Below, piece by piece: positions 47,034-64,000 of a stretch of 64,000 nucleotides of DNA (positions are counted from its first letter, which is position 1; every line of letters begins with the position of its first letter). A model generated the notes under the pieces. The model had not been told where the DNA came from and searched no databases. It worked only from the letters and a program-made list of their open reading frames with translations. The position numbers and the translations under genes were made by a program. Origin of the DNA: Acidimicrobiaceae bacterium (lineage in GTDB: Bacteria; Actinomycetota; Acidimicrobiia; Acidimicrobiales; RAAP-2). The stretch is taken from assembly GCA_003132305.1 (NCBI GenBank), contig PKXJ01000033.1, positions 1 through 64,000 on the forward strand. Direction: 5' to 3'.

Positions 47034-47088
47034 CTCAACTTCAGCAAAGGTGACTTCTTTATCCCCTACAGGGAGAAGGGAAGTTGTC

Positions 47089-48351: not shown

Positions 48352-49301
48352 ACGACCACCTCGCCACTGCCGCCACCGACTTCCTCGCTCACCAGCGAGC
48401 CCTCGGGCGCAAATACCGGACCGAGGAGGCCACACTGCGCCTGCTGCTCGCCTTCGCCGACGAGCGTCACGTGAAGGATCTGCACGAGCTGACGCCCGCG
48501 GTCCTCGACGATTTCGTCGCGTCGCGGCCACGGACCCGAGCGCGCAGTTTCAACCACCTCGTCGGGATCCTCGGCTGCTTCCTTGACTGGGCCGTGAGCC
48601 AACAGCGCTTGGCCGTGTCACCGCGGCGCCCGACTCGGCGACGCGAAACCGATCAACGCTTACCGTTCCTCTTTGACGTCGCGCAGGCTCGTCGACTGCT
48701 CGAGGCGGCCGCGGCCCTGCCCGACAACGCGAGAGCGACGAATCGCGGACCGACCTATCACGCCATCTTCGCCCTCTGTTACGGCCTGGGTCTGCGTGCC
48801 GGAGAGGCGTGTGGCCTTCGCCGCGGCGACGTCGACACCGAGCGCCAACTCCTCGTCGTGCGCGGTGGAAAATTCAACAAGAGCCGCCTCGTTCCCTACG
48901 GGCCGCGCGTCGGCGAACTTCTCGCTCGCCAGGTCGAGCGGCGCGGCGGGAGCGACGACGATCCGCTGTTCAGCTTCGACGGCCAGCGTGGCGTGCACCC
49001 CGGCAGCGCCAGCCAGACGTTCCACCGTCTCGTCGTCGAGTTGGTCCTCCCCGTCCCCGACGGCGTCGGCGCACCTCATCTGCACTCGCTTCGCCACTCC
49101 TTCGCGGTGGGGTGCCTGTCGCGCTGGTATCGCGAGGACGTCGACCCCCAGAGTCGCCTCTACCGACTCTCCACGTTCATGGGACACGTCGACCCCGCGT
49201 CCACGGCCGTCTATCTGACCATCACGCCGCAACTACTCGCCGAGGCGCATCGACGGTTCGAGGCCTTCGCTCACCCGGTCTGGTCGGAGGTGACGCCGTG
49301 A
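48348..49301 (+). CDS. Tyrosine recombinase B of the RIT-type element
   Basis: A 317-residue integrase with the N-terminal core-binding domain (FLAHQRALGRKYRTEEATL). The catalytic set is Arg in YGLGLRAGEACGLR, Lys in GGKFNKSRLV, HSLRHSFAV, GHVDPAST and Tyr in AVYLTI. It overlaps A and C by four bases each, so the three are translated from one message. Family knowledge is that all three are needed together in RIT elements, though individual roles are unresolved. Confidence 0.93.
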   Translation: MNDHLATAATDFLAHQRALGRKYRTEEATLRLLLAFADERHVKDLHELTPAVLDDFVASRPRTRARSFNHLVGILGCFLDWAVSQQRLAVSPRRPTRRRETDQRLPFLFDVAQARRLLEAAAALPDNARATNRGPTYHAIFALCYGLGLRAGEACGLRRGDVDTERQLLVVRGGKFNKSRLVPYGPRVGELLARQVERRGGSDDDPLFSFDGQRGVHPGSASQTFHRLVVELVLPVPDGVGAPHLHSLRHSFAVGCLSRWYREDVDPQSRLYRLSTFMGHVDPASTAVYLTITPQLLAEAHRRFEAFAHPVWSEVTP

Positions 49302-50305
49302 GTGGCGCACGGCCTCTCGGGCCGCTCATCCAGTCCTTCTTCATCGACCATTTGGTCACGGTGAAGGGCCTGCGACCGACGTCGGTGCGCAGTTACCGCG
49401 ACACCATCCGGCTGCTGCTGTGTTTCGTGGCCACGGACAAGGGAACAAAGATTACGAAACTCGCCATCACGGACCTGAGCTTCGAACGAGTTCTCGGCTT
49501 TCTCTCGCACCTGGAAAACGAACGGCACAACCACGTCCGGACCCGCAATCAGCGTCTGGCGGTGCTTCACGCACTCTTTGACTACCTCGCCAGCCGAGAT
49601 CCCGAGATGCTCGGCGTCGGCCAGCGGGTGGCGGCCATCCCCATGAAGCGATCGGCCCCCGGTGAGACGCACTTCTTGGAACGCGACGAAGTCGAGGCGC
49701 TGTGGCGACAGCTTCCCCGCACGGGACGTTGGGCGTCGCGCGATCGGACCCTGCTGCTGTTCCTCTACAACACCGGGGCGCGGGTGCAAGAGGTCGCCGA
49801 CTTGAGAGTTGAACACCTTGAGCTTGGAGAGAACGCCGTGGTCCGTCTTCACGGCAAGGGCGACAAGTGGCGGAGTTGTCCGCTGTGGCACCAGACCGCG
49901 GCGCTGCTGGCCGAGTTGATCGTGTCGGACGCACCTCGAGGGACGGACGTGCCCGTGTTCACGTCGGCGAATGGCGAAGCCTTGACTCGCTCGGGCCTCT
50001 ACAAGATCGTGCGACGTCACGCCGGCCACCTCGACGACCCTCGCACCAACCGCAGGGTGAGCCCCCACCTGTTTCGTCACACTGCGGCGATGCACCTGCT
50101 CGAAGCTGGCGTTGAAATTAACGTCATACGAGGCTGGCTGGGTCACGCCGACCTCACTACGACCAACCGCTACGCCGAGATCACTACCAGAGCGAAGATC
50201 GAGGCACTCCGAAACACCGAACCTCCAGGTGCTTCGGCGGGACTCCGTCCTCGCCCTGTCTGGCGGTCCGACGAGTCACTGCTCAATTGGCTCTCCTCGC
50301 TCTGA
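49298..50305 (+). CDS. Tyrosine recombinase C of the RIT-type element
   Basis: A 335-residue integrase starting at GTG overlapping the B stop (GTGA). The core-binding part is FFIDHLVTVKGLRPTSVRSYRDTI; the catalytic residues are Arg in NTGARVQEVADLR, Lys in HGKGDKWRSCPL, HLFRHTAAMHLL, GHADLTTTNRYAE with nucleophile Tyr. It is close to XerC/D-like integrases. It ends two bases before the right inverted repeat. Confidence 0.93.
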   Translation: MSGARPLGPLIQSFFIDHLVTVKGLRPTSVRSYRDTIRLLLCFVATDKGTKITKLAITDLSFERVLGFLSHLENERHNHVRTRNQRLAVLHALFDYLASRDPEMLGVGQRVAAIPMKRSAPGETHFLERDEVEALWRQLPRTGRWASRDRTLLLFLYNTGARVQEVADLRVEHLELGENAVVRLHGKGDKWRSCPLWHQTAALLAELIVSDAPRGTDVPVFTSANGEALTRSGLYKIVRRHAGHLDDPRTNRRVSPHLFRHTAAMHLLEAGVEINVIRGWLGHADLTTTNRYAEITTRAKIEALRNTEPPGASAGLRPRPVWRSDESLLNWLSSL

Positions 50306-51314: not shown

Positions 51315-52114
51315 GCCTCACGCCGACGGTCTCACCAGAACTCAAGTCGCTCATGCGTCGTCTCAAACTCGGCCAGTTGCTCGACACGTTGCCCGAGCGT
51401 CTGGCGCTTAGCCGCGCGCACCACCTCGGCGCCGCCGAGTTCTTAGAGCAACTCTTCAGTGACGAGGTGCAGCGCCGCGACGCCGCGTCGGCCGGGCTAC
51501 GCGCCAAAAAAGCTCACCTGGACTTCGCCATGGTGCTCGAGCACTGGGACGACACCGCACCCGTCACCTACGACCACGCGGTCTTGGAGGAACTCGCGTC
51601 GCTGCGCTTCGTCGACGCGGCCCAGAACGCCTTCCTGCTCGGACCCGTCGGGGTCGGCAAGACGTTCTTGGCGTCGGCGCTCGGTCACGTGGCGATTCGC
51701 CGGCGCGTGAGCGTGCACTTCGAACGAAGCGATCGGCTCTTCAAGCGTCTGAAGGCTTCACGACTCGACGCCAGCTACGACCAAGAGTTGCGCAAACTCA
51801 TCGGGGTTGACTTACTCATCCTCGACGACTTCTGTCTCACGCCCCTCGACGCGACGGAGACCAGCGATCTCTACGACCTCGTCGTCGAACGCCACCACCG
51901 CGCCTCGACGATCGTGACCTCAAACCGGGACCCGAGCGAATGGCTCGCCGTCATGGCCGACGCGCTCCTCGCTCAATCAGCGATCGACCGGTTGAAGAGC
52001 GCGGCCTACGAGCTCGTCATTGAAGGTCCCTCCTACCGCGAGCGCGAGAAGCCCACGCTCGAAGTGGAGCCTACGGAACCACGACGTTTGTCGGCATCGA
52101 GACGGACAACTTGA
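51311..52114 (+). CDS. istB: IstB, helper ATPase of the IS21 element
   Basis: A 267-residue AAA+ protein starting GTG over the istA stop. Walker A is LLGPVGVGKTFLASAL, Walker B LLILDDFCLTPLD, and sensor region IVTSNRDPSEWL. IstB regulates IstA strand transfer. It is intact, so this copy could in principle act with an IstA supplied by another IS21 of the same type. Confidence 0.93.
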   Translation: MSLTPTVSPELKSLMRRLKLGQLLDTLPERLALSRAHHLGAAEFLEQLFSDEVQRRDAASAGLRAKKAHLDFAMVLEHWDDTAPVTYDHAVLEELASLRFVDAAQNAFLLGPVGVGKTFLASALGHVAIRRRVSVHFERSDRLFKRLKASRLDASYDQELRKLIGVDLLILDDFCLTPLDATETSDLYDLVVERHHRASTIVTSNRDPSEWLAVMADALLAQSAIDRLKSAAYELVIEGPSYREREKPTLEVEPTEPRRLSASRRTT

Positions 52115-52168
52115 CAGAAAGGAGTGCGCCTTAGATAATCAACACGGCTGGTTGCGACGGACCCGAAG

Positions 52169-52219
52169 TGGTCCCATGCTTCTGGCAACGAGGTGGTCCC
52201 TTAAGACTGGCAAACGACA
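52169..52219. repeat. IS21 right terminal repeats
   Basis: Two inverted copies of the terminal motif (GTGGTCCCATGCTTCTGGCA at 52169-52188 and GTGGTCCTTAAGACTGGCA at 52194-52212), with the outer end ACTGGCAAACGACA finishing at 52219. Confidence 0.85.
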
Positions 52220-52268
52220 CCAACAAGCGGTCACGAATCCGACTGTATCGCTTGTGAAGTACAAGAAC

Positions 52269-52321
52269 GGGGCTGCTGAAGGTTCAGGTCTCAACCTGAG
52301 ACCCATATCGTCAGCAGCCCC
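52269..52321. terminator. Double hairpin, possible terminator
   Basis: An 11-base outer stem (GGGGCTGCTGA / TCAGCAGCCCC) encloses a 7-base inner stem (GGTCTCA-ACC-TGAGACC). No long T-run follows. It lies between the IS21 target site and the next gene and shares GGGGCTGCTGA...AGGTCTCA with 58930-58956. Confidence 0.5.
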
Positions 52322-52388
52322 TTTCGAGTCATTCTTTAGTGATGTATCGTTATACGGCCAATTTAGGTCTGGAGAGTTACGATTCAGC

Positions 52389-53243
52389 ATGAATGATGAC
52401 GCCTCAGTAGGTCAATCCTTCTCCCGGCAAGGGCATATCGTGAGGACCTACCGAGATGCGTCGTGGTGGCTCAAACTTGATCGGGCCGAGAAGCACCTAG
52501 TCGAGTTGAATGATGCCATTGCCGCCTACGAAAGCCGCCGCCTCCACGAAGTGAGCAAGCGGGTGGAGTCCAAACGCAAACCAAACGAGTGGGTGTATCG
52601 CTTGGCTATCCGAGGCAACCTCGATGATCGCTGGGCTATCATCGCAGGGGACTACCTCTCTTGCGTCCGGGCTGCGTTGGATCACATGATGGTCGCGCTT
52701 CAGCCTCCTAAGTACCGGCGGGACCTCATCTATTTCCCAATCTCTGAGTGCAACCCATGGGAGCGCGTCAAAGGCGGCAGGGCGTATGTCACGCGAGACC
52801 CATCCAGTCGCCGAGCCTTTCTAACAGCTCTCGAACACGTTAAGCCCGACGCGGCGGCATTCATTAAGGGGGTGCAGCCCTATCAACACGGATCGCGCAC
52901 CTCGGAGCACGTGCTGCTGACCCTCAGGCGGCTCAACAACGCCGACAAACACCGTAAACTGCTCGTCCAAGAGCACGGACTGACAGAAGGCGTCCGACGA
53001 TTCCTTCTTCCCCCCAACAGGACCCGGGTGCAGGACGTTTTCAACATTGCCGCTGGGCATGCACTTGCAGACGGCGCAGAAATACATCGCTTGCCATTCG
53101 AAGTGGACATGAAGGTCCATGGAACCGCGAAGGTAGCCATCGGAAGTAGTGCGGAGCATGTGTGCGAACTGAGGGACACTTTTGAAGCGCTCTTCCAGTT
53201 CGTGTCAATCACTATCGCCACTCTAGAATTGTGGGTGTCGTAA
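52389..53243 (+). CDS. Hypothetical protein with an LDH-type central motif
   Basis: A 284-residue protein starting MNDDASVGQSFSRQG. The segment GDYLSCVRAALDHMMVAL with later LIYFPISE resembles a widespread uncharacterised family (pattern LRxALDHxVW) found in accessory regions. ADKHRKLLVQEHG and the following beta-rich C-terminus fit that family too. There are no membrane helices. The function is unknown. It lies just right of the IS21 target site. Confidence 0.6.
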   Translation: MNDDASVGQSFSRQGHIVRTYRDASWWLKLDRAEKHLVELNDAIAAYESRRLHEVSKRVESKRKPNEWVYRLAIRGNLDDRWAIIAGDYLSCVRAALDHMMVALQPPKYRRDLIYFPISECNPWERVKGGRAYVTRDPSSRRAFLTALEHVKPDAAAFIKGVQPYQHGSRTSEHVLLTLRRLNNADKHRKLLVQEHGLTEGVRRFLLPPNRTRVQDVFNIAAGHALADGAEIHRLPFEVDMKVHGTAKVAIGSSAEHVCELRDTFEALFQFVSITIATLELWVS

Positions 53244-53541
53244 TGACGCACTCATCGCGCATCGCGGTGCCAAGGCACGGTCGCTAAGCCCAGCCCTTCG
53301 TGGACAAGGACCCGTCCCAGCGCGTTCTGATAATCGTGACCGGGGCCGGGGCCCGCCGTGGCCTCGAGCACCGCTTCACCTCAAGGGGACGAAGAACGGC
53401 TCGGACATGCCAAATGGGAATACGTTGGAGTCTGGCTCAACCTTTTTAACCCGACCTCTTGAAAGAAGCTGAGTCATGCAGCTCTCGCGATCATCATCCT
53501 CGCACCGAAGAACGAATAACTTTGAAACTTCCGGACACTAA

Positions 53542-54378
53542 GTGTCAGTTCTACCTCCAAACCAGATCGACATAGTTCTGATTGCCGTTGGCCTAGCTCT
53601 CCTCCTGATTGTTAGCATTCTCTGGGTTGTCTGGAGCCGCGGATTGATTCACGGGAAACGAATTGGCCGTGTTAACAAGAACAAACCACCGAGGCTCATC
53701 GGTAGACTGACGCTCGGTTCGTGGATTGCGGCGGTAATCCTGACACACTCCTGGAGTTCCGGCTTCCGGAAGAACGATGAAGTCAGATTTATTGCCATCG
53801 CAATATCAATCGTGTCAGTGGAACTCCTTCTGACTTGGATCTTTTTTTGGCTTGTCACTTGGAAGAGCCGCTTCGGGATGAAGAATCCTAAAGTGGGAGA
53901 AATCGGCCTCGATGAAGGCGACTTTCAACCTTTGATTAATCAATTGAATGGCGTGAAACTGCGGACCGACCTGATGTTGTTTGGAAGCGTCACACTTGGT
54001 GCAGTGTGGTGGGCGCATTTTGCAAATTTCCTGCAGGCCAATGAAAGGCTGATGCGAGTCATTACGTTGTGCGGAGAGTTATCCCTGGGAATGCTTTCGC
54101 TTGGAATCATTGCACTCATATCAATTGGGATTGATGTGTACGTTCTAAAATTCACGGGCATGGCGCGCGAGGCGCATGATCAGCCACTTGCGAAATTTGC
54201 CCACCTCGTCAGCGTTGTGATGTCAAAGTTTGGGACGTTAATTCTCATCACCTCGGTCATTGCATGGGCCCTGAAGGTCTACTTCACGGAGCCGCTGGCT
54301 CCGCTAGATGTCTTCGTCTTGTCTATTCCACTTGGAGTGATTTGGGAGTCGGCAGGAAACAAGCGCAGAGATTCATAA
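53542..54378 (+). CDS. Hypothetical multi-helix membrane protein
   Basis: A 278-residue protein from a GTG, with about six hydrophobic helices (first IVLIAVGLALLLIVSILWVV; last pair LILITSVIAWALKVYF and APLDVFVLSIPLGVIW) and a basic loop after the first (GKRIGRVNKNKPPRLIGRL). No recognised family. The composition is less GC-rich than the left half of the window, as for other genes on this side. Confidence 0.5.
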   Translation: MSVLPPNQIDIVLIAVGLALLLIVSILWVVWSRGLIHGKRIGRVNKNKPPRLIGRLTLGSWIAAVILTHSWSSGFRKNDEVRFIAIAISIVSVELLLTWIFFWLVTWKSRFGMKNPKVGEIGLDEGDFQPLINQLNGVKLRTDLMLFGSVTLGAVWWAHFANFLQANERLMRVITLCGELSLGMLSLGIIALISIGIDVYVLKFTGMAREAHDQPLAKFAHLVSVVMSKFGTLILITSVIAWALKVYFTEPLAPLDVFVLSIPLGVIWESAGNKRRDS

Positions 54379-54609
54379 ATGAATCGCGAGAGAATCTCAA
54401 GTACGGCGCTCAAGCGACACGAAACTGAGCATCAACAACAGAAGTTCGTTGCTGGCGAGTTAGTCGGCGAATCGAACGATTGCCCTCACATTGTCGGAAA
54501 CTCGATGAGGTGTACGAGGGAGACGTATTAGAAGGTCGTTGATAGCCATCCCAATCTTGATCTCCTCGGCACAACGAAATTCAATGGGTACAGGAAGCGC
54601 GCGCAATCC

Positions 54610-54891
54610 TTGCACGGCTTGCTCCTCGTCTTCTATGAGTTGACTCTTCTCTTGCAAGATCGAGACTCGGCCAACTTTTCCGACGCGCTCGCGATCTCTC
54701 GCGCGGTTCAGAAAGACGCCAGCACTTGGATGCTGTTCGTCCAGGACACGCCACCAATATCTCTCCGCGACTTTAGGATGGCAAACGCATACTCAGAACT
54801 CGGAGGCAAGATACAGGTGAAGTCCTTCGAGTACCAAACGGCGATGCAATCAGAAATCGCGAGTTGGGGACCCGTGCCATCGTCGAGTTGA
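54610..54891 (+). pseudogene. Fragment of an unknown gene
   Basis: A TTG-started 93-residue frame (LHGLLLVFYELTLLL, then KIQVKSFEYQTAMQSEIASW) that continues upstream without a start to a TAG near 54529. A different frame ending at 54541 reads CRKLDEVYEGDVLEGR, so a frameshift may separate the two. Probably a decaying accessory gene; no family is recognised. Confidence 0.35.
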
Positions 54892-55062
54892 AGAATTGAC
54901 TTCGTCGCAACAAGAGGACGCATCGAGCGACCGCAAACGGTTTCCGAACAACACGTTTGCTTGAGTCTTAAAGACTCAATCTACTTACGAAACTTTGATC
55001 CCTAGAGCAGTGTCGGGACTGCATCGAAATCTGACGCTCAACTCGTAGGAGCCCTCGTCTAG

Positions 55063-58000
55063 TCACTCACCGAATTCTTCTGGAACCAAGCGCCGTACAG
55101 CCAAATGCGCATCGCTTCTAAGCCTCTGGCGAAGGGATTCTGGAAGTTCCTTCCAACGACTTGCGAGTGCTTGACGAACTTCGACCGCAGGATCGTTTAC
55201 AAATTCACCGAACATTTCGACGTCGGCGGGCATCGTCTCGACACCCCAAGCTCTTACGTTTGCGTCTTCATGTGTAACGAGGCACTTAGATATCCACGAG
55301 TTTTCTTCCGACGACCGTGACAATGCAACGCACGCGAGCCCACCTAGGCGACGAACATTGGCTTTTTCGTGACGAAGAAGGGTGAGGGCGGGGGCCAAAA
55401 TCTTCGAAATCAACTGCCGGCCAGCGACGGTGTCAGATTCCCCGTTCGAAATTGCGGTGCTAAGTGTCTCGGCAGATACAAGCAGTGCGTAGGCGGGTAA
55501 ATCTTCACTTCCGGTATTGATCTGAAACCGACCAAGGCCAGAGGACGGGCTCATTTCAATTCGATCCAATTCTGTAAATTCTGGATTACGAAAAACATTG
55601 AAAAGCCGCTGAGCCAAATCGATCGAGGAAGAGGCATGCGCCAGCAATCTGCGTAATGCCAGAATCGCTTGCATGCGTGGCCCCGCTCCGCTGAGAGGAT
55701 CTTCGGCCACCTTCATAAAGTGCTCGGCAATTGTTTCGACAAGGCTTTCTACCGGACCCGCAGCGGCGAGAGCAGCCTCGTCCGGTACCTGTATTTCTGC
55801 ATTCTCGCTGCCGTCTTCACCATCTTGCGCAGGTGGGGCCACCGCCTCAACAACAGGTAATCCTGCCGATGGAAGTGATGTCACCGGTCCCGATTGCATG
55901 ATGATTCCACCGGGAAGTCTTGCTTTTTCAGGGCTCAACTCCTCTGGACCACACTCCGTCAATACTGTTGATCGCATTAAAGCGAGAAGTAATTCGACAG
56001 TTGCCGACTCTTGAGTGCCGATAGTAAAAACCCTTCGTTCGACGCCCACAGGTTGGCGAAGAAGTGCGGCCGCGGCTCTCCTCGCAGCAAGTTGGACCGC
56101 GTCCGTTGGCTCCCCCCACCTCGCCAGCGCGGCAACGCCGTACACATTTCCACTCTCGGCAAGAGCTCGCACTACGGGACGTAACGGTTCACGTCCGGAC
56201 TCTGGTACCTCTTGTACGAGTGCCCATATTTGATAAGAGGGATTTGGCAGCTGCAGCATTTGGCCGATCGCAACCGCAACATCGTTCCTTCGATTTTCGA
56301 CGCTCCAATACGTCTGTACTAAGAGATTTGCTACGTCATCGCTAATGCCTGTCAACTGCTCCAGAGCAGGACCAGCAATCTCCAGAATTTCATCCACCGC
56401 GGAGGGAGGAATCCGCACTCCGAATTGTGAAATTGCTTTCACCGCGTCGGCTTCTGGCCTGGGCGACACAATGGTGGTAGCCCACAGCCCAGCGGTATTG
56501 TCGAGCAAAACTCTTACTCGCTCTTCAACTTCCAAATCCGCCACGAGAGCCGCCTGGGACCCGATTACTTGCACGGCAGCGGCGCGGCGGCGGCGTAACG
56601 GAGACTTAGCCCAAGCCATCACGTCAACTTCTTCGCGCAATTCAGATGCGAGTTCCACCGCTTTATCGGCCTTCCCAGCTTTTACATAAGTCCAAATCGC
56701 TGCGGGCAAATGTCCGCCAGCGGCAAAGATATCGCCGAGCAATTCTTCCGCAAGGAACTCGTCTTGAAGATGTCCTGAGATTCGACTCTCGAACAAGTAT
56801 CGACGCGCATCACCCAGGGCGTCGGGCAACTTACCTCTGTGCGCGTATTCGAAGGCCGATGAGGCAGGTTCGAAGGCTCCCGAGATTATGCGTCGGCGAT
56901 TTGGTAGAGCAGTAGCGGCAACATCAATTTCTGCAATATTGATGTTGCCTGTTTCCCATGCGAAAAGTCGTAGAGCATGAAGCGCATTTCGAGAATCTCC
57001 GTAGTATTGATTCTCGCTTGAGCCGAGAATAGATTGACGCCATAAATTCTCAGATCTTTCGAGGTCCCCCGATTTTGCAAAGGCATTCGCTGCGCGAGAC
57101 GCAATCAAACCTCGAGCCTGGTGGAAGCGTCCCGCCAAAGCGTCCTCTACCAACTCGTCATATGCAACACCCACATCCTCGCTCGTTGAATTCGTCAACA
57201 AGACCGAATCGGCCACTGCGCAACCGAGTCGAGCTCGATATATCGCGTCCGTGGTTTCACAAGAATGCGCTAGAGTGCGTAATTCTCTTGCGAGGTCCTT
57301 GCTTTCCTCATCCAGTTTCGCCATGGTCGAGAAGGGTGGATTGAAGTCATATATGCCGTCTACAATCGCCTGCTCAAGCGTTAGGCAGGCGAGCACCGGA
57401 GCGTGGGCGTCGCCAACTTCAACAAGCTCGCGTAACGAGGGCATCGTGGCAGAGAGATTCGAACCGCGTTCGTACCAATTCGCTAGAAAGACAAGAATAT
57501 TCTGTTTCGCATTTTGAAGACTGCTTATGCCCGAAGATGCTTTGCCCAATCTGTGGATCTGGCTGGGAGCCAGTACGTCTCCCGAAGAAACTCTCTTCAA
57601 GCCCAGATCAAATGAAATTTCAGCGCTGGCTTGCAAATCCCCCGCCTGAGCCAGAGCGTCAGCTTGTCTCTGCTTCATCCCCGCAGCATTGGAAGGGAAA
57701 TTGCCCTGCTCCAATTTTGTCGAAATTATTCCAAATAGCCGAGCGGATTCTCTTGGATTCGCTTCCTGATCTTCGGTCGCTTCAATCTCTAGAGTCGCTA
57801 GGCCCAACGTTGTTATGGGTCCGTTGACAAGTCCATACGGATCTGGAAGCGAAAGAGCGTTTGCCTCAGATTCGTAGCCGCAAAACGCCTTAGCCCAATC
57901 CTTCCCAAACGCCGCAAACACCAGTGTGGGTACGTCCCGTAATTTCGCACTTATGGCTTCTGCACCCCACGCCAATACATCAATATCCCCGCGGTACTCA

Positions 58001-58494
58001 CCCTGAAGCGCGTCTAGTCCATCGACCAGCGCAGTGTCATTATCGAACGGCGCGGACGTGACCAGCACAAATTGCTTTGCATCAAATTTTCGCTTCTCAG
58101 GTGAATCGTCTTGTGATCGCGGGGCCCCTGCGTACTCCACAACTGATGCTCGAAGGTCATTACTGGTGATTGTTTGGTACCTCTTAACTTGATAGAGGCA
58201 AGTACTACGATCCATTCGCCGTTCGACGATATCTAGTCCAAACTGTTTTTGGCCGCGTCGTCCATAAAAATGCGCATCAAGATTATGCTGGCGCGTAACT
58301 AGTTCAGCTATCAATCTCTCAAACACTTCCGGCTCCAATGATGAGAGCGGGAGAAGTGCAGAATTTTGAATTGGTATAGGTGATCTCGTTGAGTCATAAC
58401 TCGCTATCTCCGCCAACGCGAGCGAAGTTTCGTCTCCTTTCACGTCACCGTTTGACCCGGGACGTCGATCTTCGCCAATCAAGTTTTGATCCAT
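55063..58494 (-). CDS. Large Mrr-like PD-(D/E)XK nuclease with long repeat-like C-terminus
   Basis: A 1143-residue protein. Residues of about 50-200 carry a restriction-endonuclease-like core: FERLIAELV, FYGRRGQKQFGLDIV with D88, and LYQVKRYQ with Q102/K104, the D...QxK variant of the PD-(D/E)XK fold, then FVLVTSAPF. Residues of about 250-620 look like TPR-type helical pairs (FAKSGDLERSENLWRQSI; LPAAIWTYVKAGKADKAVELA). Residues of about 640-1143 look like HEAT-type repeats, ending HEDANVRAWGVETMPA and DPAVEVRQALASRWKEL. No Walker motif is visible. It lies seven bases after a wHTH gene. An anti-invader nuclease is a plausible role; it is not proven. Confidence 0.65.
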   Translation of the reverse strand: MDQNLIGEDRRPGSNGDVKGDETSLALAEIASYDSTRSPIPIQNSALLPLSSLEPEVFERLIAELVTRQHNLDAHFYGRRGQKQFGLDIVERRMDRSTCLYQVKRYQTITSNDLRASVVEYAGAPRSQDDSPEKRKFDAKQFVLVTSAPFDNDTALVDGLDALQGEYRGDIDVLAWGAEAISAKLRDVPTLVFAAFGKDWAKAFCGYESEANALSLPDPYGLVNGPITTLGLATLEIEATEDQEANPRESARLFGIISTKLEQGNFPSNAAGMKQRQADALAQAGDLQASAEISFDLGLKRVSSGDVLAPSQIHRLGKASSGISSLQNAKQNILVFLANWYERGSNLSATMPSLRELVEVGDAHAPVLACLTLEQAIVDGIYDFNPPFSTMAKLDEESKDLARELRTLAHSCETTDAIYRARLGCAVADSVLLTNSTSEDVGVAYDELVEDALAGRFHQARGLIASRAANAFAKSGDLERSENLWRQSILGSSENQYYGDSRNALHALRLFAWETGNINIAEIDVAATALPNRRRIISGAFEPASSAFEYAHRGKLPDALGDARRYLFESRISGHLQDEFLAEELLGDIFAAGGHLPAAIWTYVKAGKADKAVELASELREEVDVMAWAKSPLRRRRAAAVQVIGSQAALVADLEVEERVRVLLDNTAGLWATTIVSPRPEADAVKAISQFGVRIPPSAVDEILEIAGPALEQLTGISDDVANLLVQTYWSVENRRNDVAVAIGQMLQLPNPSYQIWALVQEVPESGREPLRPVVRALAESGNVYGVAALARWGEPTDAVQLAARRAAAALLRQPVGVERRVFTIGTQESATVELLLALMRSTVLTECGPEELSPEKARLPGGIIMQSGPVTSLPSAGLPVVEAVAPPAQDGEDGSENAEIQVPDEAALAAAGPVESLVETIAEHFMKVAEDPLSGAGPRMQAILALRRLLAHASSSIDLAQRLFNVFRNPEFTELDRIEMSPSSGLGRFQINTGSEDLPAYALLVSAETLSTAISNGESDTVAGRQLISKILAPALTLLRHEKANVRRLGGLACVALSRSSEENSWISKCLVTHEDANVRAWGVETMPADVEMFGEFVNDPAVEVRQALASRWKELPESLRQRLRSDAHLAVRRLVPEEFGE

Positions 58495-58501
58495 GGGAAC
58501 G

Positions 58502-58909
58502 TCACAACCCAGATTTCAATGAATCAATCATCGCATTGAGTTTGGATGTCACGGCGTTGGCGTTGTCCGCCTTACTCACATCGGGATGTGTAATCCGTCG
58601 AGCCATATCCAGTAGTTCGATCAATTCGATCCGCTTCGAATCGCTTAATTGATCCCCCTCATCTTTTTGGCGCGGTGGCGTATCGCTACGAGTTTCTTTG
58701 CGTCTCCAAATCCAAGCACTTGAGTCCGCTGCGGTGCGATCGCAGACGAGAAAGCCTTCGAATTCCAATTCTCGTATGGCACTGTGCACGAGACCCCGTG
58801 TTAGTTTCGCCTTCTTTCTAAGCAGACGAATATCCGCCCAATTATATGCCGCTGTATCATCCTGAAAGGTTCCTCGCAGCCACTTGGTTTCTTCAGAATC
58901 CTTCTCCAT
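58502..58909 (-). CDS. Small winged-helix-like protein, partner of the nuclease gene
   Basis: A 135-residue protein. Residues 22-65 (NWADIRLLRKKAKLTRGLVHSAIRELEFEGFLVCDR) look like a winged helix with a recognition helix and wing. A polar linker and a helical C-terminus (RIELIELLDMARRITHPDVSKAD, ending NAMIDSLKSGL) follow. It could be a repressor, an antitoxin-like control protein or a DNA-binding subunit of the nuclease encoded seven bases downstream. No exact family is recognised. Confidence 0.6.
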   Translation of the reverse strand: MEKDSEETKWLRGTFQDDTAAYNWADIRLLRKKAKLTRGLVHSAIRELEFEGFLVCDRTAADSSAWIWRRKETRSDTPPRQKDEGDQLSDSKRIELIELLDMARRITHPDVSKADNANAVTSKLNAMIDSLKSGL

Positions 58910-58970
58910 TCGACCATTATTAGTCCGAGGGGGCTGCTGACGCTTTAGGTCTCAGGTTGGGTCTTTAGTT

Positions 58971-59250
58971 TTAGGCGACTTTCAACACCAGGTCAAGTGC
59001 TTCAAATTCGATTGGTGTCATCTTGCCGAGCGCACGTTGACGACGTCGACGGTGATAGGTCCGTTCGATCCAGGTGACGATCGCGAGGTGCAGATCCTCT
59101 CTCGTTTCCCAACGTCGCGTGTCGAGCACGTTGTTCTGCAACAGCGAGTTGAACGACTCCATCGCGGCGTTGTCGCCCGCCGACGCCACCCGTCCCATCG
59201 AGCCGACGAGTCCGTTATTGCGCAGCACGCGGACGAAGGCTTTGGAACGA
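58971..59250 (-). pseudogene. C-terminal fragment of an IS3-family transposase
   Basis: About the last 90 codons of an OrfB: FRSKAFVRVL, NNGLVGSMGRVASAGDNAAMESF and IVTWIERTYHRRRRQRALGKMTPIEFE, including the final catalytic glutamate. Homology starts abruptly near 59250, beside the end of a second, different IS3-family unit. The rest of the gene is not found on the other side of that unit, so this is debris. Confidence 0.8.
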
Positions 59251-59285
59251 AATATAAGGGAGGTCCTTTGGCCGGACCCCGAAAC

Positions 59286-60129
59286 CTAAGCCACTAACTC
59301 TGCGAGTCGCTGCTGGTTCCTGAACTTCCAGGTCTCGGCAAACTTGACCGGCGTGAGCCGACGAAGTGCGCTGTGGGTTCTCTCGTGATTGTATTCGTCG
59401 CGCCAGTCGGCGAGGAGCACCTTCGCTTCGAGCAGACTGTCGAACTGCTGACCGTTCAAGAACTCGTCGCGAAGACGGGCGTTGAACGACTCGATCCAGC
59501 CGTTCTGCCAGGGTGAACCGGGATCGATGAAGAGCGATCCAGACTTGTTGAATCGACACCAGTCGTTGAGCGCGTGCGCGACGAACTCAGGCCCGTTGTC
59601 CATGCGCAGGTAGTGCGGTGCGCCTCGCTCCTTCACCAGTTCGTCGAGTCGACGAACGACGTCGTCGGCGGTGATCGAACGTGCCACGTCGATCGTGAGG
59701 CACTCGCGGGTGAACTCGTCGATGATGTTGAGCATCTTGATGGTGCGCAGGTCGCTCGTTTGGTCAAACTGAAAGTCCATGGCCCAGATGACGTTGGGGG
59801 CGATGGGACGCATCGCGCCCACGACCACGCCGACGCCCGTGAGGCGCTTCTTCTTCTTGCGATAGGGCACCTTGAGCCCCTCTTCTCGCCAGAGACGCTG
59901 GACTTTCTTGTGGTTCACACCCCAGCCGGCCTCGCGCAGTGCGTCGAGACCGCGGCGCCAGCCCCAGCGCGGGTGCTGCTTGGCGAACTGGCGCAAGAAC
60001 GCGCGGATCTCCTCTTCGTGACACGGAGTGACGCGGTGCGCGTAGCCGCTGGGTGGCGCGACTTTGACCAATGACGACGCAGGCGCGGCGCTGGGACACC
60101 CCGAACTCCTCTTCGAGTGCAACGACCAC
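59286..60129 (-). pseudogene. IS3-family OrfB transposase with a frameshift
   Basis: A DDE integrase: VIWAMDFQFDQTSD (first D), LRMDNGPEFVAHAL (second D) and SPWQNGWIESFNARLRDEF (E). The N-terminus is split: VVVALEEEFGVSQRRACVVIGQSRATQR is in one frame and YAHRVTPCHEEEIRAFL in another, an extra C near 60044-60048 separating them. The normal junction would be ATQRY. The copy is therefore probably inactive unless rescued by frameshifting. Confidence 0.85.
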
Positions 60130-60149
60130 TCGACGACGTGAGCTCGGGG

Positions 60150-60428
60150 TCAGAATTTTCCCTCGGCCACGAACTTCAACATGTCGATGTCCAGGGCCTG
60201 GTTCGCGACGATGCGCTTGAGGCTCGTGTTCTCCTTCTCGAGCTCCTTGAGGCGCTTGGCGTCGTTGGCCTTCATGCCGCCATATTGATTCCGCCAGCGG
60301 TGCCAGGTCGACTCAGTGATCTCGAGTTGGCGGCAGACCTCGGCCACGTCGTGACCCTGGTTGAGCAACTTCTCACCTTCGGCGAGTTTTCTGATCACCT
60401 GTTCGGGTGTGTGACGCCTTTGCTTCAT
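60150..60428 (-). CDS. IS3-family OrfA
   Basis: About 92 residues from MKQRRHTPEQVIRKLAEGE. It has the HTH of IS3 OrfA (VAEVCRQLEITESTWHRWRNQYGG) and a coiled-coil tail (RLKELEKENTSLKRIVANQALDIDMLK). It ends with an AAAATTC run before TGA, the usual place for -1 programmed frameshifting into OrfB, whose frame begins LTPSSRRR there. Inverted repeats of the element could not be fixed. Confidence 0.88.
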   Translation of the reverse strand: MKQRRHTPEQVIRKLAEGEKLLNQGHDVAEVCRQLEITESTWHRWRNQYGGMKANDAKRLKELEKENTSLKRIVANQALDIDMLKFVAEGKF

Positions 60429-60623
60429 TGCTGTCCTCCTCGCTCCATTTTGGAGCATCGGGACTCGCATTACTAGTGGATCAGTTCACGGGGATCAGGC
60501 CAAAACCGACAGCAGCGCCCCCATCATTCAATTGAAATGTCTCGGGGTCGTCGATATGATGCAAAAGGAGCGGAACGTGCACTGGAGCAGCCGATGCGGG
60601 GATTCGCAAAGTCTGGAGAAGAT

Positions 60624-61241
60624 ATGTCTCGCAAGATGCTTCTACCCTTCGTTGCAGCAACTCTGCTGGAAACGCTATTTCTGCCTTCGAATGCAATGGC
60701 AGATACTGGGACAAATACAAGTGGAGCGATGATTCCCAGTGTCCCGGCCGGTGCTATTACTGTGCAGCTCACGGCGGCGGCGGCTACCGCTGTCAATTAT
60801 CTTGGAAATGGTATGTCGAGCATCACTTACTCGAATGGCCAGATCCTTACGGTGCCGACGAGTGTGGCAGCCCGGGTCACTGTTTCATCTTCATCCGGCC
60901 CTTCGCCGGACAACACAGTGACCGGTAATTGTGGTTCTTCTTGGGTATACCTCTACAAGAATGGCACTACTGGAGTAACGGGAAATACGGGCTATAACGT
61001 GAATTCGCGGGTCGGTGTGCCGGTGGCCTTTCAATGGGTGCTTGACACCGACAACGTGACTTGGAACCAATCACAGCGGAATCAGTGGGACGGTGCAACC
61101 AACAAAAGTAATTGGACAGGGCATTTCGCGGTCAGTTACGGTTTCGGAACTTATGAGTCACATCTGTTTGAAGGGTATGTCATCGGCACGCTAAACACCT
61201 GCTTCAGTGTCGGCGTGCGCGATACCATCACCACCCCGTGA
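60624..61241 (+). CDS. Secreted hypothetical protein
   Basis: A 205-residue protein from the ATG of MSRKMLLPFVAATLLETLFL, a signal peptide with cleavage probably after SNAMA. The mature part is rich in Ser, Thr, Asn and Gly with beta-strand-like stretches (GAITVQLTAAAATAVNYLG, HFAVSYGFGTYESHLF) and two well-separated cysteines (GNCGSSW and NTCFSVG) that may form a disulfide. No family is recognised. It is an exported protein of unknown role, alone on the plus strand after IS3 debris. Confidence 0.55.
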   Translation: MSRKMLLPFVAATLLETLFLPSNAMADTGTNTSGAMIPSVPAGAITVQLTAAAATAVNYLGNGMSSITYSNGQILTVPTSVAARVTVSSSSGPSPDNTVTGNCGSSWVYLYKNGTTGVTGNTGYNVNSRVGVPVAFQWVLDTDNVTWNQSQRNQWDGATNKSNWTGHFAVSYGFGTYESHLFEGYVIGTLNTCFSVGVRDTITTP

Positions 61242-61368
61242 GTTCAACGCCAGACGCGAATCGGTCCATGAGCACGCAGAGTAAAAGCGAGATGGGGCTG
61301 CGTAAGTGAGTAGTCCCAGTCGGTTGAATTGAGCGCATGACCCAGTTGGATACCGCGCTCCAGCCGCT

Positions 61369-61515
61369 ATGGACGTATCCACAATTGCATTGGAAAAAGT
61401 CCCGGCTAGGCTGTTACTGATTATCGTGGCTTCGTACATATCGATTATGGTTCTGGCATCTGAAATCGGGTGGGCGCCTACTTCCTATTGCGCGGCTAGA
61501 AGAGAGGTATTTTGA
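61369..61515 (+). CDS. Small single-helix membrane protein (48 residues)
   Basis: An ATG frame starting MDVSTIALEKVPARLLLIIV with a hydrophobic helix (about residues 14-31) and a short tail ending CAARREVF. Its TGA shares a base with the ATG of the next gene (TGATG), which argues that it is real and coupled. The charge pattern (Lys, Arg before the helix; Arg-Arg near the end) fits a one-pass inner-membrane peptide. No family is recognised; small toxins, anchors and regulatory peptides all look like this. Confidence 0.45.
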   Translation: MDVSTIALEKVPARLLLIIVASYISIMVLASEIGWAPTSYCAARREVF

Positions 61516-62681
61516 TGGAACGAGGCGCTGATTCGTGGCGCGTAATCTTCGATCCGCTATCAATTCCCCTTCACCAGGCCCTTTTCGTTCGCGATACAGC
61601 GGGTCTAGAAATTGAGTCCAAAGCAGAGGTCCCACCGCGACTTCGAGGTGACCTACCGGATTGCAGGGACTACTTGTCTTCCGATTTGAGAGTTGGTGCG
61701 GGCCTGCGGTGGATCAGTTGGTGGCACGAACTTGTTCACAGCGTGGCCGCCCGTCAACAAATCTCACTTTCAGCGAACTCAGGCCCGCTTCCCCAGCAGT
61801 TGCCGTTCGGGATGTCGGGAATATTGCCGCCAATGTATCTCGACGGTGAACTGGACGAGTCCTCCATGGTCGCTCTTGATCGTATATTTGAACTCGCTTC
61901 TCAGTGGAGTGCCACATTGAGGACGAATGTCGGCGCGAGTCGTCCTCCCACGTTGGTCTCTTCAGACATGCACAATCGTTTTTCTTCCATCGCGAGCGAG
62001 ACTGCGACCCAACTCGGGGTGTCAACTGGCGCAATGAAAGCGGCAATCCTCACGTTAGCGGTGAGCGGCAAATGGTCACGTAGGCCCATTGCTGGCGTGT
62101 TGTTGTGCTCTGAGAGTGTGCTTGAGGACGATGGCCAATTTGCAGGGTTGCTCGCAGATACCTTCATATCTGGACTCAACCCTCAGGTGGTGGAAGCTTT
62201 GCTCGAGAGGCCAGCAGAGCGCAGTGCAGCGCGCTCTGTTCTCGACTCGCCGTTACTTATTGCAAGAGTGGGCGAAATGACATTGCGGCTTGAAGGTGTG
62301 TACGTGCGCCAAGGTGGCTTTGAACTCGAACTGTCCCGAAACGGAGATTTGACTGGTATTCCACCGCGACCCTATTCAAAGATAGAAGGTTTGCCTTCGG
62401 ATCCGGAAGGTTCCCTTAATCATTTCGACGGTTTGGAGCTAGAAGTTCGCTTCACTTCCGAATTGCTCGACGAGAAGAAGTCTGTGTCAACGCAAAGCAG
62501 CACTTTCGTCAATCGCTTTTGGCGGCCCGGGCGCAGCCCGGACACGCTTTGGCTGTGGGTGCGTGTCGAATCACCGTTAGGTCAAGTGATGATGTCGAAT
62601 CGGGGCATCGTGACGGTCACCGCGACGTGGCCGGAATCTCAAATCTACCGCTGTTCTGTCGAATTTGAGATGAGATCATAG
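61515..62681 (+). CDS. Hypothetical protein coupled to a small membrane peptide
   Basis: A 388-residue soluble protein beginning MERGADSWRVIFDPLSIPLH. The middle is mainly helical (GAMKAAILTLAVSGKW; FISGLNPQVVEALLERPAERSAARSVL), and the C-terminal half is beta-rich and acidic (LELEVRFTSELLDEKKSV; VTVTATWPESQIYRCSVEF). No enzyme motif was recognised. Overlap with the one-helix gene upstream and a protein kinase 250 bases downstream suggest a multi-gene system. Confidence 0.5.
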   Translation: MERGADSWRVIFDPLSIPLHQALFVRDTAGLEIESKAEVPPRLRGDLPDCRDYLSSDLRVGAGLRWISWWHELVHSVAARQQISLSANSGPLPQQLPFGMSGILPPMYLDGELDESSMVALDRIFELASQWSATLRTNVGASRPPTLVSSDMHNRFSSIASETATQLGVSTGAMKAAILTLAVSGKWSRRPIAGVLLCSESVLEDDGQFAGLLADTFISGLNPQVVEALLERPAERSAARSVLDSPLLIARVGEMTLRLEGVYVRQGGFELELSRNGDLTGIPPRPYSKIEGLPSDPEGSLNHFDGLELEVRFTSELLDEKKSVSTQSSTFVNRFWRPGRSPDTLWLWVRVESPLGQVMMSNRGIVTVTATWPESQIYRCSVEFEMRS

Positions 62682-62930
62682 GAGCCGACGCGCAGGCGCT
62701 AATTGGATTGGCGACAACGTAAAGAATTGAACTTACATCTGTGATCCAGTCCCCCCAACTCCTTTCGTCGGAGTCACTTTTGGCAACAACAAAAACCCCG
62801 AGGGGTCGAGTGATCAATTTGCGGCAGATTTAAATCTCGAAAGTCAGAGTTCTTCACATGTCCGCGTCGTTATTTAGTTTCTGAATGTAGGCTGCAATCA
62901 GTTTCCGGTTGAAAGGCGAGGAGAGGTCAA

Positions 62931-64000
62931 TTGGCGGTATTGCCATCTCCAGGCGCCCCAATCGTGGGGACTGGTCCCGCATATCAACTTCTTGGGTTAA
63001 CACTTAATAATCGATGGCTAGTGACGGAGCTTCGGTCTTCGAGCCCTGACGATACGGGCGGGTATTTCTCAGTTGGATATTTCGCCGAAGATCTTGATAG
63101 CCCCACAAATGATGAAGTATTTGTCAAGGCCCTTGACTACTCACGCTGGAATGAACTCCGGTTCTCCAGTTTGGCTGACGCCGTGAGCTACCTGACCGAG
63201 GGATACCGCTTCGAAAGAGACATCGTTATGGAGTGCGCTGGGCTGCGAATGCGTAACGTCGTGAAGGGTTTCGACTCGGGTTCCATTGAAGTTGCGGGCT
63301 TCGAGATATTCAACTATGTCGACTTCATTGTGTTTGAGAAGGCAGAGTGTGATGTTCGCGGACGACTGAGAACGGTCGAGGCGTTTGATGTTGCTTGGAA
63401 GTTGCACGTTCTGCACAATGTTGCGAAAGGCCTTCAGCAACTTCATCAGTCCAAGAAAGCACACCTTGATCTGAAACCGTCGAACGTGCTCTGTTTCGAA
63501 GAATCTGATCTTGAGACAATGGCGAAAATTGGCGACCTCGGAAGAGCGCACGATGCTTCCCGAACAGGACCTCACTCGAACTTGCCGTTTCCTGGTGATC
63601 GGACGTACGCGCCGCCTGAAGTTCTCTATGGACACAACGAGAGCAACCGAATTTTGCAGACTCGTCAAATTGACATGTATTTACTCGGAAGCATGATGAC
63701 CTTCATGTTTACGGGTATCGGAGTGACGGCGGGGATGCTGATGTTTCTTGATCCATCTCTCTTGCCAAATTCTTGGAGAGGAACGTATTTGGAGGTGCTG
63801 CCGTACCTACGTGAAGCATACGAGTCGCACATGGATGAAATTGAACGGACCATCCCGGCGGCGATGAGGGAAAGCTTGACTCTGACGATTAGGGAATTGA
63901 CTGATCCCGATGTTGCGCAACGCGGCCATCGTAGAGATCCCTTCGGCTCAAGAAGTCGATTCAGCATGGAGAAATATGTATCGATACTAAATCGACTTTC
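62931..64000 (+). CDS. Serine/threonine protein kinase, runs off the right edge
   Basis: Starts at TTG, preceded by a strong ribosome binding site (AGGCGAGGAGAGG). Kinase residues are in place: beta-3 lysine in VFVKALD (K66), catalytic loop HLDLKPSNVL (D180, K182, N185; the usual HRD is HLD), Mg loop IGDLGRA (D202) and TYAPPE (E230). The glycine loop is degenerate. At least 356 residues are visible with no stop before the window end; the part after about 290 is helical. It is a eukaryotic-like Hanks-type kinase, probably catalytically active, of unknown target. Confidence 0.85.
   Translation, partial: MAVLPSPGAPIVGTGPAYQLLGLTLNNRWLVTELRSSSPDDTGGYFSVGYFAEDLDSPTNDEVFVKALDYSRWNELRFSSLADAVSYLTEGYRFERDIVMECAGLRMRNVVKGFDSGSIEVAGFEIFNYVDFIVFEKAECDVRGRLRTVEAFDVAWKLHVLHNVAKGLQQLHQSKKAHLDLKPSNVLCFEESDLETMAKIGDLGRAHDASRTGPHSNLPFPGDRTYAPPEVLYGHNESNRILQTRQIDMYLLGSMMTFMFTGIGVTAGMLMFLDPSLLPNSWRGTYLEVLPYLREAYESHMDEIERTIPAAMRESLTLTIRELTDPDVAQRGHRRDPFGSRSRFSMEKYVSILNRL

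Follow-up and report, generated by a model that had tools for sequence, protein, structure and literature searches.

A candidate actinobacterial defense protein that joins an Mrr-type nuclease domain to a TPR- and HEAT-like solenoid

Introduction

In many bacterial immune proteins that carry repeats, a STAND nucleoside triphosphatase (NTPase) converts recognition into effector activation. The locus analyzed here raises the question of whether a nuclease domain and a long array of repeats can form an immune protein without such a module. It lies in a 64,000-nucleotide stretch of an Acidimicrobiaceae bacterium (assembly GCA_003132305.1, contig PKXJ01000033.1, positions 1 to 64,000 of the forward strand; hereafter, the window), for which a preliminary description, made from the sequence alone, had proposed a two-gene defense cassette encoding a winged-helix protein of 135 residues and, seven bases further on, a nuclease of 1143 residues with repeats. 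This layout holds: both open reading frames (ORFs) are present, with these lengths and this spacing, on the minus strand.

55063..58494, minus strand: P0001, Mrr-solenoid protein, 1143 aa, intact (ORF; full-length relatives)
58502..58909, minus strand: P0002, 135 aa, probable helix-turn-helix (HTH) or winged-helix protein of unknown kin; an accessory or regulator, not a conserved partner

Judged from sequence comparison, the P0001 frame is certainly a gene because it has full-length relatives at 44-45% identity. P0002 is probably a gene, on mixed evidence: under a codon model of the island genes, its own frame is the only one of the six that scores positive without an internal stop, whereas under a model trained on the whole window it stays below the selection threshold, and its length is unremarkable given that Markov sequence contains a mean of 5.0 ORFs of at least 135 aa per 12 kb.

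We report that P0001 belongs to an undescribed actinobacterial family, that its gene is very probably a defense gene and, with an even chance of being right, that the protein is a single-chain innate-immune effector. The basis for this proposal consists of the homology to Mrr, the solenoid architecture, the lack of an NTPase motif, the defense neighborhoods and the exchange of front ends in the family. What is new is a version of the enzyme-plus-repeat-sensor arrangement built on a known nuclease family, Mrr. NTPase-free proteins of the DSR2 type are valuable in that a single chain gives access to both recognition and killing and, if the proposal is true, the nuclease version would offer a testable model for phage sensing by large solenoids and for effector swapping.

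The nuclease domain

A Pfam search with whole P0001 yielded a weak match to Mrr_cat (PF04471; E 0.059, 13.9 bits against a cut-off of 21), and the isolated N-terminal domain, at 18.4 bits, is also under this 21-bit cut-off; on sequence grounds, we file it as a divergent relative of the PF04471 clan and not as a Pfam member. When the domain was aligned across 17 family members, Mrr_cat was matched in 7 of the 17 (best E 3.3e-6) and Mrr_cat_2 in two. As a yardstick, we searched 41 genomes from the genus and order of the window and aligned 11 of the 16 Mrr_cat matches obtained; comparison of this alignment with that of the family by hhalign gave a probability of 98.2 (E 4.7e-14, 110 columns), and the GxD and QxK columns of Mrr_cat line up with D88 and Q102/K104 of P0001 both in hhalign and in a joint alignment. 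These profile comparisons show homology between residues 45-205 and the restriction-nuclease domain of Mrr.

57880..58362, minus strand: nuclease domain of Mrr type, residues 45-205, order a-b-b-b-a-b (model; Mrr_cat matches; hhalign)
58231..58233, minus strand: D88 codon, same in 17 of 17 members
58183..58191, minus strand: Q102-V103-K104 codons (QxK), K in 9 of the 20 Mrr-bearing members

The AlphaFold2 model of P0001 (11-row alignment; mean predicted local distance difference test score, pLDDT, of 76.4) contains a helix at 55-70, strands at 74-78, 87-92 and 98-104, a helix at 111-122 and a strand at 139-146, and this order, a-b-b-b-a-b, is that of PD-(D/E)XK enzymes. The Foldseek and VIA lists obtained for the whole model are filled by the solenoid, and the fit of the nuclease domain to PD-(D/E)XK is one of element order; BFVD gave RPB5 rows, at E 0.37 and worse, on which we do not rely, and the nuclease-domain profile retrieved only chance chains among the PDB sequences (E 0.48 or worse).

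Residues E59, D88 and Q102 are invariant in all 17 aligned members. At position 104, 6 of the 17 have K and 11 have R; once the relatives at loci L079, L080 and L081 are added, K is found in 9 and R in 11 of the 20 Mrr-bearing members; the window protein has K, and DNA cleavage by it is predicted from D88, Q102 and K104. The family shares with Mrr_cat a homologous domain with GxD...QxKR and differs by a GQxQ motif ahead of GxD, by QxR in those 11 members and by the long solenoid. The Mrr domain is also the best-conserved part of P0001, with 54-57% identity to the nearest four relatives against 31-37% in the second HEAT-like part, as would be seen for a fixed effector coupled to a diverging sensor.

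The solenoid and the lack of an NTPase motif

The remainder of the protein is predicted to form repeats of two kinds, interrupted by a linker.

56875..57819, minus strand: TPR-like helical repeats, residues 226-540 (model; 7t7t and 5a7d matches)
55915..56874, minus strand: HEAT/ARM-like repeats, part I, residues 541-860 (model; 5owu match)
55783..55914, minus strand: disordered, variable linker, residues 861-904 (pLDDT; low identity)
55090..55782, minus strand: HEAT/ARM-like repeats, part II, residues 905-1135 (model; structure matches; HEAT_2)

The AlphaFold2 model is helical throughout residues 226-1135 except for the linker at 861-904, where block pLDDT is 29-35 (over 861-900) and identity to the four nearest relatives drops to 16-29%. 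VIA-align 2 matched residues 228-519 to the TPR protein 7t7t (Z 13.0, root-mean-square deviation, rmsd, 6.3, 267 aligned) and residues 539..1120 of the model to the HEAT protein 5owu (Z 12.8, rmsd 6.4, 462 aligned), and the LGN structure 5a7d was matched as well (Z 11.8, rmsd 6.1, 290 aligned); helical repeats commonly give Z values of this size, which indicate architecture, not kinship. At the sequence level, HEAT_2 was recognized in 2 of 11 members (best E 3.8e-6), P0001 matched no PDB sequence at E<=1, and the family profile gave weak matches to designed helical repeats and to tubulin chaperone D.

No Walker A pattern (GxxxxGK[ST]) was found in P0001 or in any of 22 relatives, of which two are truncated by contig ends, and the same pattern is present in three NTPase controls, namely the STAND proteins of L012 and L013 and a NACHT neighbor at L007; nor did P0001 match any NTPase of Pfam at E<=1. 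Thus, the architecture read in the preliminary description, with a D...QxK core, a nuclease of Mrr type, TPR- and then HEAT-like repeats and no ATPase motif, is borne out. The contrary outcome that it had named, a lack of nuclease fold, is contradicted by the profile homology and by the helix and strand order of the whole-protein model, with no fold search having been run on the single domain.

The family and the exchange of its front ends

A scan of GTDB returned 11 loci, from Streptomyces, Nonomuraea, Gordonia, Rhodococcus, Pseudonocardia and a metagenome-assembled genome of Acidimicrobiales. Among 72,556 plasmid records 11 matched, all of them actinobacterial, three over 67-68% of the query and eight over 17-19%; two of these eight, L009 and L010, were fetched and counted as family. 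The spread is patchy: 4 of the 148 genomes of a genus-and-order sample match, the window's own genome included, with G091 the sole other whole-protein match and G115 and G035 matching in the nuclease domain only. In a phylum sample, 8 of 396 genomes match, three of them (the own genome, G091 and G527) over most of the profile, and a solenoid profile that includes the G527 row matches 23 of 397 genomes of the order of G527, five of them nearly full length. Genomes with only short matches (18 of the 23 and 5 of the 8, respectively) were not counted, and the family as delineated here has 22 loci, made up of the window, the 16 relatives placed in the tree and five more (L029, L079, L080, L081 and L082). 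One further locus cut at a contig end, L024, enters neither the tree nor the counts of 20 and 22; L019, also cut, is counted. In the tree, the window protein groups with L011, L015, L016 and L025 (100/100), and a second branch (99/99) unites ten members, all those with arginine at position 104 except L011. The lysine-bearing L009 and L010 fall outside, on long branches, and lysine at this position would be the ancestral state.

Neither P0001 nor P0002 matched any family of PADLOC 2.0.0 at E<=1, and the relative at L082, the sole one scanned, matched none at E<=1e-5. P0001 has no match in NCBIfam either, in agreement with the earlier statement that no named system is known to have this makeup, and no Mrr-TPR-HEAT defense family is named in the titles and abstracts of the open-access literature searched.

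The Mrr core is present in 20 of the 22 family loci. At L029, in G527, the solenoid is recognizable over profile positions 211-1055 (E 4.2e-58 with a profile built without L029), and it follows a different N-terminus that has no Mrr core and no Pfam match; 21 bases after this gene comes a gene for a TIR/SEFIR protein (TIR_2, 9.1e-18; bSEFIR, 2.3e-62). At L082, in G894, the solenoid extends over 797 columns (E 2.3e-44) behind a different N-terminus without a Pfam match, whose GGAxxxFEY...DD...FQVKR pattern we take to resemble Cap4-type nucleases. Because the solenoid thus also occurs without Mrr, its front end is, on sequence evidence, exchangeable. Directly upstream of the Mrr-less solenoid gene, a DUF4041/T5orf172-type ORF is seen on a second record (L052 7305-8483, plus strand; L052 is the same as L029 up to 987).

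It is tempting, if tentative, to see here a new class of NTPase-independent immune receptors, in which the TPR-HEAT solenoid would be a common chassis for exchangeable effectors: Mrr in the same chain at 20 of the 22 loci, a different and perhaps nuclease-like front end at L082, and bSEFIR in trans at L029. Such proteins might also be add-ons to the cyclic oligonucleotide-based antiphage signaling system (CBASS), type I restriction-modification (R-M), Hma and perhaps Ssp, possibly guarding these systems against phage inhibitors.

Two NTPase-bearing cousins of the nuclease domain were also encountered, at L012 (4192-8265, minus strand) and at L013 (2-3508, minus strand), the latter in the window's own genus (G035); each joins an XRE-type HTH, Mrr_cat, an nSTAND NTPase and HEAT repeats in one protein. 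A shared solenoid between the P0001 family and the L012 protein, which served as a negative control, was rejected (hhalign probability 0.9). The Mrr-solenoid ORF at L079 (5961-9335) opens with an HTH_Tnp_1 stretch (E 2e-7), which is either a real HTH fusion or a start miscalled after an insertion sequence (IS) remnant.

Defense genes around the family

The preliminary description had placed the gene in defense surroundings, and this is the case both on the window's own contig and at the relatives.

62931..64000 and on past the window edge, plus strand: start of the PDC-M71A/B candidate defense pair (PADLOC match)

This pair (L026:2931-4037, E 3.4e-100; L026:4037-5557, E 1.4e-114) is 4 kb to the right of the window gene on the opposite strand, and the interval contains IS-like ORFs along with two ORFs that have no assignment. 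PDC-M71A is kinase-like and PDC-M71B is a TPR protein; the name PDC-M71 appears in no paper of the open-access literature searched.

At the relatives, the gene next downstream is STAND_TPR at L015 (3.8e-108), PDC-S06 is nearby at L021 (2.8e-115), and PDC-M30A is about 5 kb off at L020 (1.1e-21). At L011, an integrase gene follows the family gene and SspD (2.6e-114) is about 4 kb away. An OLD/GajA-like gene immediately precedes the family gene, in the same orientation, at L008 (2.4e-23) and likewise at L017, L018 and L020, in copies 86-89% identical to that of L008; these copies are not independent, and only the L008 copy was scanned against PADLOC. On the Gordonia plasmid pGKT2 (L010), the family gene starts 22 bases after a DUF499/HmaC gene (HmaC, 2e-259), itself preceded by DUF1156. 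Type I hsdM, hsdS and hsdR are next upstream on the same strand at L079, where the family ORF in its longest reading starts 13 bases on and a CBASS cyclase gene lies downstream. At L080, the family gene is immediately preceded, in the same orientation, by genes for a CBASS phospholipase and cyclase, with 227 bases between the cyclase gene and the family gene; on the other side, two ORFs of 564 and 433 aa that match nothing in Pfam (E<=0.01) or PADLOC (E<=1e-5) follow the Mrr-solenoid gene (L080 3154-6172, minus strand). Pfam or annotation alone points to a NACHT neighbor at L007, an annotated S-adenosylmethionine (SAM) methyltransferase is near L006, and L009 has a HEPN match under Pfam's cut-off.

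For a comparison with background, 29 distinct neighbors, picked by eye, were scanned against PADLOC, with E<=1e-20 taken as positive. Sixteen of the 29 were positive, against one or two of 59 genes from G788, G527 and G091, taken from 12 randomly placed stretches of 10 kb, where the matches belong to two families, both WYL, each in one member. By locus, 10 of the 22 have a PADLOC neighbor at this threshold; the scan covered all of them but L017, L019, L022, L023, L081 and L082, and at L018 the OLD-like gene was not among the neighbors scanned. A confinement of homologs to housekeeping loci, the other contrary outcome named at the outset, is contradicted by these neighborhoods.

P0002 and the question of a cassette

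P0002 was taken for a winged-helix protein in the preliminary description. Its best Pfam matches, HTH_34 (E 0.031) and HTH_41 (E 0.24), are both under the cut-off, and a single-sequence model (pLDDT 55.8) combines a pair of HTH helices with a two-strand wing and has another two helices flanking an HPD motif; the assignment is thus weakly supported. The model gave no structure match above Z 4.2, and among PDB sequences P0002 found HIV Nef chains at E 0.25 or worse, taken as chance. A C-terminal J-domain, considered for the HPD between two predicted helices, was unsupported by a profile of 11 J domains, for which 64 of 2000 shuffles and 546 of 2000 shuffles with HPD fixed score as high.

BLASTP detected no P0002-like gene at 19 fetched loci (single match, E 0.33) or in six more records from five places (best E 0.19), and by eye such a gene is absent at 16 relatives. 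P0002 found itself only in the 148 genus-and-order genomes and no relative in IMG/VR; in the 396 phylum genomes it found itself and one stretch at E 4.4e-4, which is taken as chance because it lies inside a glutamyl-tRNA synthetase-like ORF (by eye) in another frame. The two-gene cassette as a conserved system is rejected on this evidence, and this part of the preliminary description is not borne out. P0002 is most likely a lineage-specific regulator or adaptor that was recruited in this lineage only.

Proposed mechanism and alternatives

The closest architectural parallel to P0001 that we consider is DSR2, which is not known to contain an NTPase. In DSR2, residues 1-298 form a SIR2 enzyme, and the helical region behind it (299-1005), which includes HEAT repeats, binds the phage tail tube protein (PMC11263360), so that an N-terminal enzyme is joined, as in P0001, to a HEAT-bearing helical region, of about 700 residues in DSR2. 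P0001 shares with it, in modeled architecture only, the trait of a HEAT-bearing C-terminal region without an NTPase; the enzyme of DSR2 is a SIR2 NADase whereas the N-terminus of P0001 is of the Mrr nuclease type, and the published passages on DSR2 that we cite describe HTH, helix bundle, HEAT and C-terminal domains and no TPR-like part, which P0001 has. The trigger of DSR2, the tail tube protein, is known, and no sequence relation of the two proteins is claimed.

We propose that the TPR-then-HEAT solenoid of some 900 residues would bind a phage- or plasmid-made trigger and, while unbound, would restrain the N-terminal Mrr-type nuclease; upon trigger binding P0001 would rearrange or multimerize and the nuclease would cut DNA, with trigger, activation and cleavage all being steps that we infer. 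Since P0001 has no NTPase motif, no NTPase would be needed, and the protein would work like DSR2 with a nuclease in the enzyme's place.

Other known systems resemble P0001 in part. STAND proteins with repeats exchange TIR, SIR2, Mrr_cat or BpuSI_N effectors (PMC9122126), and Avs/NLR-like STAND NTPases thus share with P0001 an Mrr_cat effector, C-terminal repeats and effector exchange; P0001, however, has no STAND NTPase between effector and repeats (no Pfam NTPase, no Walker A, and only helices after residue 226). In multi-component conflict systems, Mrr-like restriction endonucleases (REases) are among the effectors and TPR and HEAT repeats serve as scaffolds (PMC7159879); as described there, these are NTPase-regulated multi-gene systems, and no such components were recognized at the window locus. 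With Hma and DUF499-centered bacteriophage exclusion (BREX)-related systems, the link is the relative on pGKT2, but none of their core genes was recognized at the window locus and P0001 is not a core component. The bSEFIR protein at L029 is encoded in trans, whereas P0001 carries Mrr in the same chain.

Several results weigh against the proposed effector. Arginine replaces the catalytic lysine in 11 of the 20 Mrr-bearing members, and because of this the Mrr domain of the R branch may be a binding module instead of a cutting one; the model scores under pLDDT 50 in the loops of the active site (77-86 and 92-96); and the TPR and HEAT matches, with Z up to 13.2, are no stronger than those that common helical repeats can give. 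Phage records and two IMG/VR scans (protein and alignment) contained no phage or viral relative of P0001. Six scanned loci (L006, L007, L009, L016, L018 and L025) have no neighbor at E<=1e-20, some of the defense genes are 4-5 kb off with other genes between, and the figure of 16 of 29 is biased upward by the choice by eye and includes several matches from one operon.

The substitution at position 104 also bears on a different reading, in which the REase-like domain would be a non-catalytic sensor of a ligand or nucleic acid and the solenoid a scaffold recruiting separate effectors encoded nearby. Nucleotide sensing has been described as a frequent role of inactive REase domains that are paired with NTPases (PMC12839542), and separate effectors do adjoin the family genes (bSEFIR at L029, the phospholipase at L080 and the weak sub-cut-off HEPN match at L009). 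However, nine of the 20, the window protein among them, keep D...QxK, the residues E59, D88 and Q102 do not vary even within the R branch, and the proposal in that paper concerns NTPase-coupled proteins, whereas the P0001 family lacks the NTPase motif; we consider this reading unlikely. A somewhat better, if still doubtful, case can be made for modification-dependent or modification-assisted restriction, in which Mrr would cut by modification state and the solenoid would clamp DNA or attach the protein, as an auxiliary nuclease, to a modification system of the host (Ssp, Hma or type I R-M). The Mrr of Escherichia coli is modification-dependent, systems of this kind lie near the relatives (SspD at L011, HmaC with DUF1156 at L010, hsdMSR on the same strand at L079), and there is the SAM methyltransferase near L006. 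Furthermore, BREX and DUF499-centered BREX-related loci are reported with auxiliary nuclease effectors (PMC12839542). Against this, no modification gene was recognized among the neighbors scanned, a part of the total, at L080, L021 and the window, and L029 combines a front end other than Mrr with an adjacent bSEFIR gene.

That P0001 has no antiviral role and is a nuclease of mobile-element maintenance, competition or stress that hitch-hikes in islands seems improbable. The genes do lie among recombinase- and IS transposase-like ORFs (by eye) and, in the window, between inverted-repeat copies, a recombinase-like ORF (by eye) precedes the family gene at L022, and the integrase follows it at L011; yet unrelated defense families adjoin the gene in different genera against a low background, and one solenoid relative adjoins bSEFIR, a PADLOC-listed defense protein. 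Very improbable, finally, is an obligate two-component system of the winged-helix protein and the nuclease. The two genes share a strand with seven bases between them, and an HTH is fused ahead of Mrr_cat in the NTPase-bearing L012 and L013 proteins, but the partner gene was not found at the relatives examined, the searches of 148 and 396 genomes yielded no credible relative of P0002, and the L012 protein does not share the P0001 solenoid.

Mobile-DNA setting of the window locus

Scans for promoters and terminators gave results at chance level, and no Rfam element reached its gathering score in 52000-64000. A 30-nt motif occurs in inverted orientation at 52292-52321 (plus strand) and 58930-58959 (minus strand), the copies identical outside a 5-nt middle, and bounds 6.6 kb holding the Mrr gene (0 matches in 100 shuffles). 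No transposase was recognized by eye inside the 6.6 kb, and the motifs may be the ends of a non-autonomous element; a third, lone copy is present on contig C8 (12434-12467). To the left, at 47050-50305, are three overlapping ORFs that we take, also by eye, to be tandem tyrosine recombinases resembling a recombinase-in-trio element, followed up to 52114 by what are presumably (again by eye) IS21-like istA/istB pieces. Directly upstream of P0002, at 58971-60470, are IS3-like transposase pieces (by eye), and a stretch 86% identical to these is found at C21:96070-97300.

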